Shown: in pieces, positions 27,762 to 33,147 of the stretch
Position numbering within the stretch: position 1 is the stretch's first letter
Layout: every line of letters begins with the position of its first letter
Origin: Minisyncoccota bacterium
GTDB taxonomy: Bacteria; Patescibacteriota; Minisyncoccia; Phycocordibacterales; UBA12079
Length of the DNA: 33,147 nucleotides
Assembly (NCBI GenBank): GCA_023135835.1
Contig: JAGLSI010000005.1
Coordinates: 1 to 33,147 of the forward strand
Direction of reading: 5' to 3'
Made by a program: the position numbers and the translations under genes
The notes under the pieces: model-generated
The model's input: only the letters and a program-made list of their open reading frames with translations
Told to the model about the DNA's origin: nothing
The model's database searches: none

Positions 27762-28280
27762 TCACCTCAACAAATTTTTATAAGTCTTTTTTAATTCATT
27801 TAATTGAGTTTCAACATCAAAAAGCCCCATTTTATTTCTTCTTTTTTCCAAATTATCTAAGTCTTCAGTAGGAGACATCACGAGCTTCCCATTTTCTATC
27901 TTAAATTGAGTACCATATAACTGTTTTTTACCTTCAGCTATTAAAATTCTATCTTCTAAATATGCTAAATCTTTAGAATCTGCCTCATTTTTTTCTACTG
28001 CTTTTTTTAATAATTTTAAAACTTCCTTCTGTAAAATAATATCTTTATCCATATGCTGAACTAATAACCAAAAATTATGAGACGCTTCCTCTCCAACTAA
28101 AGAAATAGTAGGCCAACTGTATTTTCTTAAAACTTTTTCAACAAACTTCTTACTTATTGAATCTTGAAAAATTACCTCTGAACAAAGTTCTTTAATTTGG
28201 GGAAATTTAAGAGATAGATTTCGTATATATTGATCTTGAGTCGCGTATTTATTTATCTCTATCTTTAATTTTTCATTCAT
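27762..28280 (-). CDS. DUF6624-like protein
   Basis: The 172-aa product resembles the DUF6624 family: SWPTISLVGEEASHNFWLLVQHMDKDIILQKEVLKLL followed by DLAYLEDRILIAEGKKQLYGTQF, matching the family's G-x-x-A-x-x-x-W-L-L-V-Q-H-x-D and A-Y-L-x-D-R...G-x-x-Q-x-Y-G-T-Q patterns. The biochemical role of the family is not known to me. The frame opens at an ATG six codons upstream (28298), but that start lies directly against the terminator at 28301-28328, so the ATG at 28278-28280 (MNEKLKIEINKY) is preferred; neither has a Shine-Dalgarno sequence. TATAAT lies just upstream. The gene lies between an ATP-grasp ligase and a Nudix hydrolase. Whether it takes part in the peptide pathway is open. Confidence 0.75.
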   Translation of the reverse strand: MNEKLKIEINKYATQDQYIRNLSLKFPQIKELCSEVIFQDSISKKFVEKVLRKYSWPTISLVGEEASHNFWLLVQHMDKDIILQKEVLKLLKKAVEKNEADSKDLAYLEDRILIAEGKKQLYGTQFKIENGKLVMSPTEDLDNLEKRRNKMGLFDVETQLNELKKTYKNLLR

Positions 28281-28300
28281 ATTATATATATTACACATAA

Positions 28301-28328
28301 AAAAGAGGGGTGTCTATTCCCCTCTTTT
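28301..28328 (-). terminator. Intrinsic terminator of ATP-grasp gene A
   Basis: On the minus strand AAAAGAGGGG, loop AATAGACA, CCCCTCTTTT then TT. It lies 5 nt after the stop codon. Confidence 0.92.
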
Positions 28329-28333
28329 CGGTC

Positions 28334-29260
28334 TTAAGATATTAATGCTTGTGCAATTGCTTTTCCAATAGGCAATCCCGTTCGCTCCTCTATAAATTTC
28401 CATTGTCCATTTGGATTAATTTCCAAAAAACAATACTCATCATCAGGAGTTACAATCATATCTATACATCCAAACCGTAGTCCTAACTCCGAGACATACT
28501 CAATACAAAGCTGTCTGATGTTCTTAGGTAATTCAAATATAGAAGCTTCTCCTAGCCCTCTTCTCCAATCAATTTTTGACGAGCTCTTAACCGTCGCAGC
28601 AAAAACATTATCATCAACAACAGTAATTCGTAACTCAAACTTCTTTTTAATCAATTTTTGAAAGATTACAGGAGAAAGCTTCAGCCTATCAATATTATTC
28701 ATAAATTCGGCTGTGACTTTATTTGTAAAAACAATACGATTTCCGTGAAGACTATTTGTTAATGTCTTAACAACCATCTCTTCCTCGCAGTATTTCCAAA
28801 AATCTTTAGCTCTAACAGGATTAGATGTTATTAAAGTATCAGGAATAACAAAACCCATATCCTGTGCTGTTTTTAACTGAAACGGTTTATGCTCAGCTTC
28901 AAGCATCTTGTAATAATTATTTATCCATTTAGCTTCCTTTAAGAGAGAGGCTAATGATCTCCAGAGAGCCAAAAACTGCCGATACATAAAAATTGATTCT
29001 TCATGTGGAGAATGTTCCCTCAAAGTTTTAGGTAAAACAGGTTTCCAAAACCATACTGATTCAACATTATTAAGGATATATTCCGAGATACCAACATCAG
29101 CAAATGTTTCTGCTTTTCTATCGATGAAGGAAAAACCGACTCCTTCATTCTCTAGACAGAGATCTGCCTTAAATATAATAACCTCTTTATCGCTAATTTC
29201 ACGAAGATGCGCAGTAACAGGTTCAACCAAATCTTTACTATTTCCAATTATAAATATCAT
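28334..29260 (-). CDS. MvdD/MdnC-type ATP-grasp ligase (putative graspetide synthetase A)
   Basis: The 308-aa protein follows the microviridin/graspetide ligase layout: an N-terminal pre-ATP-grasp domain ending VESVWFWKP (about 66-73, where MdnC has a D-A-I-W-Y-R-R-like motif), then PDTLITSNP (140-148). ATP-binding K165 is in VVKTL, FELRITVVDDNVFAATV (208-224) carries the E-x-R strand, DWRR is at 231-234, GCIDMI at 264-269, and the metal/ATP loop CFLEINPNGQW is at 277-287 (E280, N282). Members form ester or amide cross-links between Thr/Ser/Lys and Asp/Glu side chains of a precursor peptide. It is preceded by a strong Shine-Dalgarno sequence (AGGAGGTG) and, upstream, a 46-aa precursor-like gene with a terminator hairpin between them. 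Family assignment is from motifs; substrate is inferred from position. Confidence 0.92.
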   Translation of the reverse strand: MIFIIGNSKDLVEPVTAHLREISDKEVIIFKADLCLENEGVGFSFIDRKAETFADVGISEYILNNVESVWFWKPVLPKTLREHSPHEESIFMYRQFLALWRSLASLLKEAKWINNYYKMLEAEHKPFQLKTAQDMGFVIPDTLITSNPVRAKDFWKYCEEEMVVKTLTNSLHGNRIVFTNKVTAEFMNNIDRLKLSPVIFQKLIKKKFELRITVVDDNVFAATVKSSSKIDWRRGLGEASIFELPKNIRQLCIEYVSELGLRFGCIDMIVTPDDEYCFLEINPNGQWKFIEERTGLPIGKAIAQALIS

Positions 29261-29290
29261 GAAACACCTCCTTTTTAAATAAAGATTAAA

Positions 29291-29319
29291 AAGAGAGCAA
29301 CCACATGAGTTGCTCTCTT
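29291..29319 (-). terminator. Terminator/attenuator hairpin between precursor A and ligase A
   Basis: On the minus strand AAGAGAGCAAC, loop TCATGTG, GTTGCTCTCTT then TTTAATCTTT: a perfect 11-bp stem. Partial termination here would give much more precursor mRNA than ligase mRNA from one promoter. Confidence 0.85.
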
Positions 29320-29355
29320 ACCTACAATAATGTTGATAAAAAGCATTAGCCTCAT

Positions 29356-29496
29356 TTAGTCCAAACCAGCAGAATCTGGCTCATCATGAGTACCAATAGA
29401 AGTACCACCGAAAACAACCTGTTGTTCTCCCTCATAAACAATATTGATAGTTTCTGCAAAGTCCAAAATAAGGGGTTTTACTTGCCCTTTTTCCAT
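29356..29496 (-). CDS. Putative graspetide precursor peptide A (46 aa)
   Basis: The small frame encodes a 46-aa peptide, MEKGQVKPLILDFAE then TINIVYEGEQQVVF, ending GGTSIGTHDEPDSAGLD. The C-terminal 17 residues carry hydroxyl residues T32, S33, T36, S42 and acids D38, E39, D41, D46, the composition expected of a graspetide core. The leader contains P8-L-I-L-x-x-A-E15, similar in spacing to P14-I-L-L-x-x-I-E21 of the second candidate precursor at 32575. A very strong Shine-Dalgarno sequence (AAAGGAGGTGA) sits 7 nt before the ATG. An isolated transcription unit is suggested by a terminator upstream (29618-29645) and one downstream. I found no confident promoter. Product and cleavage are inferred; no protease or exporter is adjacent. 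Confidence 0.8.
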   Translation of the reverse strand: MEKGQVKPLILDFAETINIVYEGEQQVVFGGTSIGTHDEPDSAGLD

Positions 29497-29617
29497 ATTC
29501 GCTCACCTCCTTTCCTATAGTAAGTATTATCGTTAAAGGACTACCTATTTATAGGATAATCTTTTGGTTAAAATAGCAATATAAATTTATTATAATCCAT
29601 AACCTTCTTATGTTCAA

Positions 29618-29707: not shown

Positions 29708-29935
29708 TTAATTCAAAATATCTTTTAACTCGTTTTGATAATTACTCATTACTTCCATAGTAGCTGACATTTGGTCTTTTCCCTCTTTCATTTTAGCCTG
29801 AACTTCTGTTCCAATTTTTTGAAATAATTCTGGATTTTCAGTAACAACTTTTAAAATTTTTTCTTGTTCTGCTTCAGGCACGTCTTTTAATTGTGACTTC
29901 AACATCTTCTTCATCATCATATCTTTTAATCCCAT
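29708..29935 (-). CDS. Small helical protein, unknown function (75 aa)
   Basis: MGLKDMMMKKMLKSQLKDVPEAEQEKILKVVTENPELFQK and onward is a charged, Met-rich, fully helical protein with no Cys and no membrane segment. The pattern of a basic amphipathic N-terminus and a P-E-A-E-Q-E-K-I turn recalls small helical proteins common in CPR genomes, but I cannot name a family. There is no Shine-Dalgarno sequence. It lies alone, with a terminator after it and a repeat-rich gap before it. It is unlikely to be a precursor peptide because it lacks a Thr/Asp-rich tail. Confidence 0.7.
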   Translation of the reverse strand: MGLKDMMMKKMLKSQLKDVPEAEQEKILKVVTENPELFQKIGTEVQAKMKEGKDQMSATMEVMSNYQNELKDILN

Positions 29936-30325
29936 AATAAATTTAGTTAAAAGTCCATAAAGTCGAAAGTCGAAAGTCTTTTTTTAAAAAATTGCGGAGC
30001 AATTTTTTTTACTTTATAGACTTTATAAACTTTATAGACTTTTGACTTAATTATAATAACTTTTATATTAACATTTTAAATACTAAAAACAAATCCCCTT
30101 ACTATTCCAATCCATTGGACTAGTATCGATTTTTAATTTATTAAATTTTGATTAAAAAAAATAGAAATGAAAAACACCGAATCCCCGAAGGAAAACGATG
30201 TTTTTCATAGCACCTAAATTTTGGCAAGCCAAGATTCAAGTACTGTCCATATATTATCAAAATCAATAAATAAGTCAACAGCTATTCTTTGTTAAACAAT
30301 ATATTATATATTACGTCAAATTATA
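29936..30325. other. Gene-free repeat-rich stretch
   Basis: No gene was found in these 390 nt. They hold an AGTCCATAAAGTCGAAAG-type tract (29945-29980), a hairpin AAAAAATTGC-GGA-GCAATTTTTT (29987-30009), another tract of CTTTATAGACTTTATAAAC units (30010-30050), and an imperfect hairpin at about 30168-30207 (GAAAAACACCG ... CGATGTTTTTC) that may be the terminator of the DUF2914 gene. Confidence 0.75.
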
Positions 30326-31516: not shown

Positions 31517-32509
31517 ATGAAAAAAATACTTTTAATCGCAAGTTTAGATGAAAAATATTATTATTTACCTTTCATTAATGCTGGTAAAGATAAAAATATT
31601 GAAATACATATTTTTGATCCTGATAGTATCCCTGAAAAAGCAGAATTAGAAATCTTTTTCAATCGAAACAGTGTCAAAATTGATGGTTTTATAGATACTA
31701 ATAAAATTGTTGAAGAAAATTTTCAGAAATCTAGAATAAAAATATCTGAAATTGATGTCGCTTGGTATTTAAGAGAAAGACCTGGGATATCTTTAAAAGA
31801 AATGAACTTAAAAAACAAATTTGCTAAAAATGAGTCAAGAGTAGCTGTTAAAACACTATTAGCTACTCTTGAGTGTAAATGGGTAAATAAAAAAGAGACA
31901 ATAGATTTTTTATCAAGCAACAAATTGTATCAACAAATAATAGCTCACAGAAGTGGATTAATTACTCCTGATACATTAATATCAAATAACGCAAAGAATG
32001 TTTCTAAATTTTCAAGATTAAAAGGAGATTTACTTTTAAAGCCTTTAGGATATATAGGAATAGATGACAAGGGAGAATATTTTCTTTATGCACAAATTTT
32101 CTCTCAAAAAGAAATTTCTAATTCTTTTGGTGCGATAAAAGCATGTCCAGTCTTTGCTCAAGAATATATAAAGAAAAGATATGAATATAGAATTATGGTT
32201 ATCGGAAATTCTGTATTATCTTGTCGTATAGATTCTCAAGCAAGTGAAAAAACAAAAATAGATTGGCGTCATTATGATTTTGAAAATGTGAATCACAGTA
32301 AAGTTGATTTACCAATAGAAATACAGAAAAAACTTCTATACTTTATGAAAAAAATTAATTTAAAATACGGAGCAATTGATATGATAGAAACTCCAAATGG
32401 AGAATTTGTTTTTTTAGAAGTTAACCCCTCTGGACAATGGGGTTGGATAGCTGATCTAGCAAAATTACCCATATCAGAAGCTGTAGTTAATATGCTTCTC
32501 AATATTTAA
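31517..32509 (+). CDS. MvdD/MdnC-type ATP-grasp ligase (putative graspetide synthetase B)
   Basis: The 330-aa protein has the same architecture as the ligase at 28334 but is clearly divergent. The pre-ATP-grasp domain ends SEIDVAWYLRERPG (77-90), closer to the MdnC motif than in ligase A. PDTLISNN is at 151-158, K175 in LLLKPLG, YEYRIMVIGNSVLSCRI at 222-238, DWRH at 249-252 (Arg-Arg in most relatives), GAIDMIETPNGEFVFLEVNPSGQWGW at 285-310 (given in pieces: D288, E301, N303), and LPISEAV at 317-323. It has its own promoter and an AGGAG ribosome binding site. The 67-aa candidate precursor is convergent with it, 65 nt beyond its stop codon, across a shared terminator. It is likely to form ester/amide links in that peptide; whether A and B exchange substrates is unknown. 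Confidence 0.92.
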   Translation: MKKILLIASLDEKYYYLPFINAGKDKNIEIHIFDPDSIPEKAELEIFFNRNSVKIDGFIDTNKIVEENFQKSRIKISEIDVAWYLRERPGISLKEMNLKNKFAKNESRVAVKTLLATLECKWVNKKETIDFLSSNKLYQQIIAHRSGLITPDTLISNNAKNVSKFSRLKGDLLLKPLGYIGIDDKGEYFLYAQIFSQKEISNSFGAIKACPVFAQEYIKKRYEYRIMVIGNSVLSCRIDSQASEKTKIDWRHYDFENVNHSKVDLPIEIQKKLLYFMKKINLKYGAIDMIETPNGEFVFLEVNPSGQWGWIADLAKLPISEAVVNMLLNI

Positions 32510-32574: not shown

Positions 32575-32778
32575 TTAATTACGAGTAGCATCTTCCTGTT
32601 GATCATGCATTTCTGGTTGTGCTCCAGCAGTGGTAACAACAGTCATATGTGTTGCAACAGGTGTTATCACAATTCCATCTTTATCGAATTCTTCTATTAC
32701 AACTTCTGGTTTCTTTTCAATTCTACGAAGTAGAATAGGCGCATTATTATCAATTTCAAAATTATTTCCAGTTAACAT
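32575..32778 (-). CDS. Putative graspetide precursor peptide B (67 aa)
   Basis: The 67-aa peptide starts MLTGNNFEIDNNAPILLRRI and ends in a Thr- then acid-rich tail: T39, T43, T46, T49, T50 in ITPVATHMTVVTTAG and E56, D59, E62, D63 in QPEMHDQQEDATRN. Separate clusters of hydroxyl and acidic residues suit a hairpin- or ladder-like set of ester links. The leader-like P14-I-L-L-R-R-I-E21 resembles P8-L-I-L-D-F-A-E15 in peptide A. A strong Shine-Dalgarno sequence (AAAGGAGG) lies 9 nt before the ATG, and a near-consensus promoter is at 32833-32862. A frame on the opposite strand overlaps but lacks these signals. The assignment rests on composition and neighbourhood. Confidence 0.75.
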   Translation of the reverse strand: MLTGNNFEIDNNAPILLRRIEKKPEVVIEEFDKDGIVITPVATHMTVVTTAGAQPEMHDQQEDATRN

Positions 32779-32830: not shown

Positions 32831-33147
32831 TTATAATAACTTATTATTAATCCAAAAGTCAAGCCCTATAATTTTATCTTTAAATTCTTTTACGAGGTAT
32901 TTGGCGGTTGTTTTTTCAGGTTCTGTTATTATACCATCAGACCATATTTCAGCTTCTCTTAATTTGTTGTGAGTTAAAAGATAAAAAAGTTTAGTTATTT
33001 TGTTTGGATGATTTCCAAATTGATACTCTAAAGCTTTTTTTGAATATTCTTGAGCTTTTTTTTTGTTATGATACCTCCAAATTGCACAACTAATAGCATG
33101 ATGATACCACGACCATAAAATATTCCTTATCCAAAAAACCTCATCTG
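32831..33147 (-). CDS. C-terminal part of a TPR-like helical protein
   Basis: An open frame enters from the right edge and ends at the TAA at 32831-32833; 104 residues are visible. The sequence (SWYHHAISCAIWRYHNKKKA, EYSKKALEYQFGNHPNK, KLFYLLTHNKLREAEIWSDG, EPEKTTAKYLVKEFKDK) shows repeated helix pairs with A-x-x-x-x-x-x-A-L-E-Y spacing like tetratricopeptide repeats. Function unknown. It lies directly upstream of precursor B on the same strand, and the -35 box of the precursor's promoter is inside its last codons. It was too truncated to be listed as an intact gene. Confidence 0.65.
   Translation of the reverse strand, partial: DEVFWIRNILWSWYHHAISCAIWRYHNKKKAQEYSKKALEYQFGNHPNKITKLFYLLTHNKLREAEIWSDGIITEPEKTTAKYLVKEFKDKIIGLDFWINNKLL
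32833..32862 (-). promoter_or_regulatory. Promoter of precursor B
   Basis: On the minus strand TTGACT (32857-32862), 18-nt spacer, TATTAT (32833-32838). The predicted leader is about 48 nt and includes the Shine-Dalgarno sequence. Confidence 0.75.

Follow-up and report, generated by a model that had tools for sequence, protein, structure and literature searches.

A compact operon predicted to encode a graspetide in a reduced CPR-type genome

Results

Organization of the locus

The window is a stretch of 33,147 nucleotides, contig C31 of a genome assembled as 572,592 bases in 35 contigs (90% complete). This genome is reduced and of the CPR type, as a preliminary description of the DNA had assumed. 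The locus is read from the minus strand, and its order is a 46-aa peptide gene (29356–29496), a hairpin, an ATP-grasp ligase gene (28334–29260), and a DUF6624 gene (27762–28298). The preliminary description had proposed the peptide and ligase frames; both are real and begin with ATG, the ligase frame encoding 308 aa. It had also placed the peptide directly upstream of the ligase, and indeed only 95 bp of gene-free DNA separate them. It did not mention the strand, the DUF6624 gene, which starts 36 bp past the end of the ligase frame, or the terminator-like hairpin at 29319–29291.

The strong Shine-Dalgarno sequence that had been claimed for the peptide gene is read directly as AAAGGAGGTGA at 29503–29513 (minus strand), and it is kept in G003, a genome of the same genus as the host. 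A promoter-like site, TTGAAC-17-TATAAT, lies at 29589–29617 (minus strand), 93 bp upstream of the precursor start. It is a consensus match only, and promoter-like sites in the region are no more common than in shuffled sequence (7 vs 9.3). Farther upstream, beyond a 75-aa frame at 29708–29935, short imperfect repeats (aaagtcgaaagtc and actttatagacttta) occupy 29955–30050.

The precursor peptide

The 46-aa peptide has the sequence MEKGQVKPLILDFAETINIVYEGEQQVVFGGTSIGTHDEPDSAGLD. G003, whose ligase is 86% identical, has the peptide at the same place with frame and tail kept. Over the 46 codons, the two genes differ by 23 nucleotide changes and only 4 amino acid changes, where the codon test expects 15.4. 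In the 15-residue tail, 6 nucleotide changes lead to no amino acid change (4.05 expected, p = 1e-4), whereas the upstream and intergenic flanking DNA is only about 71–72% identical. The peptide is thus under strong purifying selection. A third homologue occupies the same position in G184, beside a 55%-identical ligase, and its tail is TSRGTHDEPDTAGLD. A profile of the three precursors, run against 397 genomes of the order, matched in these three genomes alone (E < 1e-31; next best 0.02); within the order, the precursor is therefore restricted to genomes with the ligase. The codon test and this distribution rule out a small frame arising by chance. Homologues beside related ligases and purifying selection together support the graspetide precursor role that had been suggested from composition and position.

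Leader: PLILDFAE (P8–E15; 29452–29475, minus strand) is invariant in the three close precursors and is predicted to be the site at which the ligase docks. Its residues 8–13, P-L-I-LD-F, fit the published Phhx(1,2)h motif.

Core: The predicted core is TSIGTHDEPDSAGLD, 15 residues at the extreme C terminus (29359–29403, minus strand), and it is identical in G003.

Double glycine: A double-glycine cleavage site was considered and rejected. GG is present in the window and in G003, but is absent from G184 (AQ) and from most relatives.

The ligase

The ligase is a graspetide synthetase of the MvdC/MvdD type, as judged by NCBIfam and PDB matches. The NCBIfam models GRASP_SAV_5884 (TIGR04187), MvdC (TIGR04185), and MvdD match it with E values of 1.9e-62, 9.3e-60, and 1.1e-49, respectively, and rimK_fam with 4.3e-22. 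The corresponding scores of the first three models (211, 202, and 169 bits) are above the 79 bits of rimK_fam but below the curated NCBIfam cut-offs of 350, 425, and 475. Hence, the enzyme is a divergent member of the family. At E ≤ 0.001, the PDB matches are AMdnB, MdnB, MdnC, CdnC, the MvdD-like ligase 9bou, and 7drm, which we take to be PsnB. The E value is 9e-44 for AMdnB and 0.0025 for RimK. These model and PDB scores rule out a RimK or glutathione-type identity, so that the ligase groups with graspetide synthetases and not with those enzymes.

The motifs DWRR, FLEINPNGQW, and PDTLITSNP, which had been noticed earlier, are all present. Among related ligases, D231-W232-R233, K165, E209, R211, D267, E280, and N282 are invariant, and the conserved residues are expected to bind ATP and Mg.

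One precursor family and one ligase clade

Relatives were sought in the order, the class, and the phylum, which gave about 60 related ligases. Whole-genome profile searches performed better than a scan of genome contigs with the single ligase, which returned one close relative and distant genes of Legionella and Bacteroidetes. Eleven of the ligases are preceded by a small frame on the same strand with the leader P-[FL]-[IV]-[LM] and the core T-[ST]-x-G-[TY]-x4-D. They comprise the window and ten other genomes, all of the phylum, so the small frame is indeed kept beside homologous ligases.

Across the eleven precursors, T1, G4, and D10 never vary, and only S or T occurs at position 2; Thr/Ser donors and Asp acceptors are thus conserved in the core. 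T5 is replaced by Y in two relatives. A second Asp is found at position 13 in eight precursors and at position 15 in the subclade of the window.

In a quick tree of the ligases, built without the precursors and without bootstraps, the ligases of these eleven precursors form one monophyletic clade (SH-aLRT 97), and none of 500 shuffles was equally clustered. As the eleven precursors match exactly one ligase clade, the ligases have kept their type of precursor, as would be expected for a substrate and its enzyme.

Other small peptides were seen near the related ligases. Those of G086 and G063 have different precursors, with the leader IPLGILLSEE and the core PTSAWWTGGP. Precursors with this leader and the core PTSAWWTGGP[DE]S lie at L050 (7443–7607, minus strand) and L051 (6327–6479, minus strand), where a divergently oriented DUF6624 gene lies between precursor and ligase. 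In L055 (1666–1815, minus strand) and L068 (2970–3125, plus strand), a conserved small peptide with the common sequence YDPxTQTWSHRNxxxxSPVKHNxE lies near divergent ligases. It is without the Thr-to-Asp pattern and may be a precursor of another type. In Legionella-type genomes (L015, L016, L017, and L018), the related ligases are 31–33% identical and form a tight clade on a long branch.

The DUF6624 protein

The gene at 27762–28298 (minus strand) encodes a 178-aa protein with a match to PF20329 (3.6e-19). In the precursor clade, all eight loci that have enough downstream sequence have a DUF6624 gene 30–86 bp behind the ligase and on its strand; at the remaining three of the eleven, the contig stops shortly after the ligase. 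Over all ligases collected, DUF6624 adjoins 26 of 59 and was not found beside the other 33. H82, D116, Q126, G129, T130, and R154 are invariant. The AlphaFold2 model is almost all helical with a mean pLDDT of 95.1, and the protein is without a signal peptide. The fold search gave no PDB match at E ≤ 0.001 and no enzyme fold. For DUF6624, the ligases, and their neighbours, PADLOC gave no convincing match that would point to an anti-phage role. The likeliest role for DUF6624 is that of a partner or tailoring protein. The precursor, the ligase, and DUF6624 make up a minimal three-gene unit in which its role could be found.

Hairpins and expression

A 12-bp hairpin with a T run lies between precursor and ligase (29291–29319, minus strand), beginning about 37 nt past the precursor stop codon. 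It was called by the terminator scan as terminator-like and has a fold z of −3.0. Hairpins are present at this place in 10 of the 11 clade loci, and their sequences are unrelated, differing even in G003 and G184. The T run is missing in several relatives; hence, the hairpin is not strictly a terminator everywhere, and processing or mRNA protection are also possible. In the window, it is predicted to lower the expression of the ligase relative to the precursor. Partial termination which keeps the precursor in excess over the enzyme is a common device in RiPP operons.

After the ligase, an inverted repeat, AAAAGAGGGG-N8-CCCCTCTTTT, is read directly at 28303–28330 (minus strand) and could be a terminator or read-through point before DUF6624. 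The terminator scanner made no call for it in the window; its counterpart in G003 was called.

Maturation and export

The statement that no protease or exporter adjoins the locus holds. Elsewhere, neither the host genome nor G003 (96% complete), its closest relative with the locus, has a C39 peptidase or ABC_membrane match over the cut-off, so that no type-I ABC exporter was found in either. A dedicated C39/ABC exporter acting in trans is judged unlikely, as there is a lone sub-threshold C39 match of 11 bits, and the sole (weak) ABC_membrane match in the host genome reads as SecD by sequence. With the host genome 90% complete, absence of an exporter is not proven. As no C39 peptidase-transporter was found, the route of maturation and export is probably not encoded in the operon. 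MacB-type permeases are present in 9 of the 11 clade genomes; they are widespread and, in the host, unlinked to the locus. Release via a MacB-type exporter, release via an unlinked protease, or no release at all are possible. In G586, a MacB-type permease (C7:12633–13307) is located about 3.5 kb from a graspetide ligase (C7:16802–17764; locus L113, G586:C7:13800–20800) and is a candidate exporter.

A second graspetide locus in the window

A second, convergent locus consists of a ligase at 31517–32509 on the plus strand (MvdC model, 6.8e-55) and a precursor at 32575–32778 on the minus strand. This precursor has 67 aa, ends in MTVVTTAGAQPEMHDQQEDATRN, and is conserved in G051, G178, and G345. 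Its core agrees literally with the branch-1 signature TxxxTx(6-10)Dx(1-4)D. Upstream of the precursor, a gene at 32831–33145 (minus strand) is cut by the contig end. It has apparent counterparts at the same locus in the three genomes just named and no Pfam match, and may be the TPR-type neighbour that has been described for CPR branch 1.

Discussion

Proposed pathway

We consider it very likely that the locus is a compact operon for a graspetide, i.e., a RiPP macrocyclised through side chains, with crosslinks that are predicted from the sequences described above. The precursor would be transcribed first, and the terminator-like hairpin would pass part of transcription on to the ligase gene; partial termination there would leave the substrate in excess over the enzyme. 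The ligase would then dock on the leader. In the established chemistry of this ligase family, Asp is phosphorylated and attacked by a hydroxyl to give an ester. Here, the ligase would use ATP to phosphorylate the Asp side chains of the core, and Thr/Ser hydroxyls would attack to form ester crosslinks. The tail probably carries two such side-chain links. By the alignment, T1 and S/T2 (or T5) could be the donors, with D10 and D13/15 as the acceptors. The likeliest product would have Thr32 and Ser33 (or Thr36) linked to Asp41 and Asp46, which corresponds to −36 Da. Because two relatives have Y in place of T5, and the second acceptor moves from 13 to 15 in the subclade of the window, the alignment does not fix the link pattern.

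A more far-reaching reading is unlikely in our judgement, with some prospect of being right. It holds that the core T-[ST]-x-G-[TY]-x4-D-x2-4-D defines a distinct graspetide type, that its synthesis cannot proceed without DUF6624, a partner whose fold would be new, and that export of the product needs no peptidase-containing ABC exporter, or else that the product works within the cell or at the site of host contact.

Alternative explanations

A frame upstream of a terminator-like hairpin also has the layout of an attenuator, so the 46-aa frame could be a regulatory leader peptide for the ligase with the true substrate elsewhere. This is very improbable: such peptides can do without a docking motif and without conservation of the tail; here, selection on amino acids reaches the last codon, and the tail, rich in donor and acceptor residues, is conserved in 11 genomes. 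The distance from stop codon to hairpin also argues against attenuation, and no alternative antiterminator was seen.

Two further alternatives, both of which we hold to be very improbable, concern the chemistry. The ligase has the ATP-grasp core in common with RimK, and the Pfam RimK domain matches it with 3e-11; it might add amino acids such as glutamate to the peptide or to another protein and form no macrocycle. The graspetide models, however, score far above rimK_fam, AMdnB outranks RimK by some 40 orders of magnitude in the E value of the PDB match, and the related ligases retain the D-[FW]-R motif. The peptide might also stay linear and be modified otherwise, with DUF6624 and not the ligase doing the main chemistry. 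Its tight linkage to the ligase and its invariant H, D, Q, and R would suit such a role, and a group 18 graspetide cluster is described as turning Asp into aminomalonate on a linear precursor (PMC13097080). Against this, the active-site residues of the ligase are kept, DUF6624 was not found beside more than half of the ligases collected, and the fold search turned up no enzyme for it.

Comparison with known systems

The genomes of CPR bacteria are tiny, and a life on other cells is assumed for them. This 0.57-Mb genome keeps two separate graspetide loci about 2 kb apart, and one tail is frozen by selection; what a RiPP does in a probable episymbiont is therefore testable from short synthetic genes.

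As in the microviridin system (MdnA with MdnB/MdnC), the ligase is homologous, the leader has a P-hydrophobic motif, and the core combines Thr/Ser with Asp/Glu. The locus differs from it in having one ligase instead of two and no adjacent ABC exporter. The tail, as had been pointed out earlier, is unlike the microviridin core, with no TxKxPSD and no Lys. In the stem-loop graspetides fuscimiditide and OEP6-1 (PMC12291112), a single short core likewise has its Thr donors towards the N terminus and its Asp acceptors towards the C terminus, an arrangement which suggests nested links. The fuscimiditide pattern T-x3-T-x10-D-x3-D is nearer to the second locus of the window (32575–32778), and no methyltransferase is present at the locus described here.

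Graspetide loci and precursors of CPR bacteria have been reported in ATP-grasp branches 1 and 2 (PMC8939145; Biol Direct 2022). Those loci resemble ours in the kind of host, the ligase family, the Phhx(1,2)h leader, and the Thr...Asp core. The branch-1 signature is carried by most, not all, branch-1 cores in that study; the present core departs from it, as in TSIGTHDEPDSAGLD the TxxxT is followed 9 residues later by a D, with no further D. Cluster 23 of the same work is an uncharacterised family, associated with the loci, in which His and Arg are conserved; this family may be DUF6624. In a 2026 survey (PMC13097080; ACS Chem Biol), DUF6624 is found at high frequency in graspetide groups 18, 20, 23, and 42; the survey leaves its role open. 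Group 42 (and group 27) are the closest in kind, group 42 being rich in candidate-phyla members and in DUF6624. As CPR graspetide loci and the co-occurrence with DUF6624 are both published, the locus is a fresh example and not a new system. In the 2022 study, no similarity was found from one precursor cluster to another and branch-2 precursors were few; the eleven precursors described here, by contrast, have one motif in common. What is added is this one-motif family with its one-to-one match to a ligase clade, in a setting where the usual exporter was not found, together with a recurrent hairpin and the tight linkage of DUF6624 within the clade.
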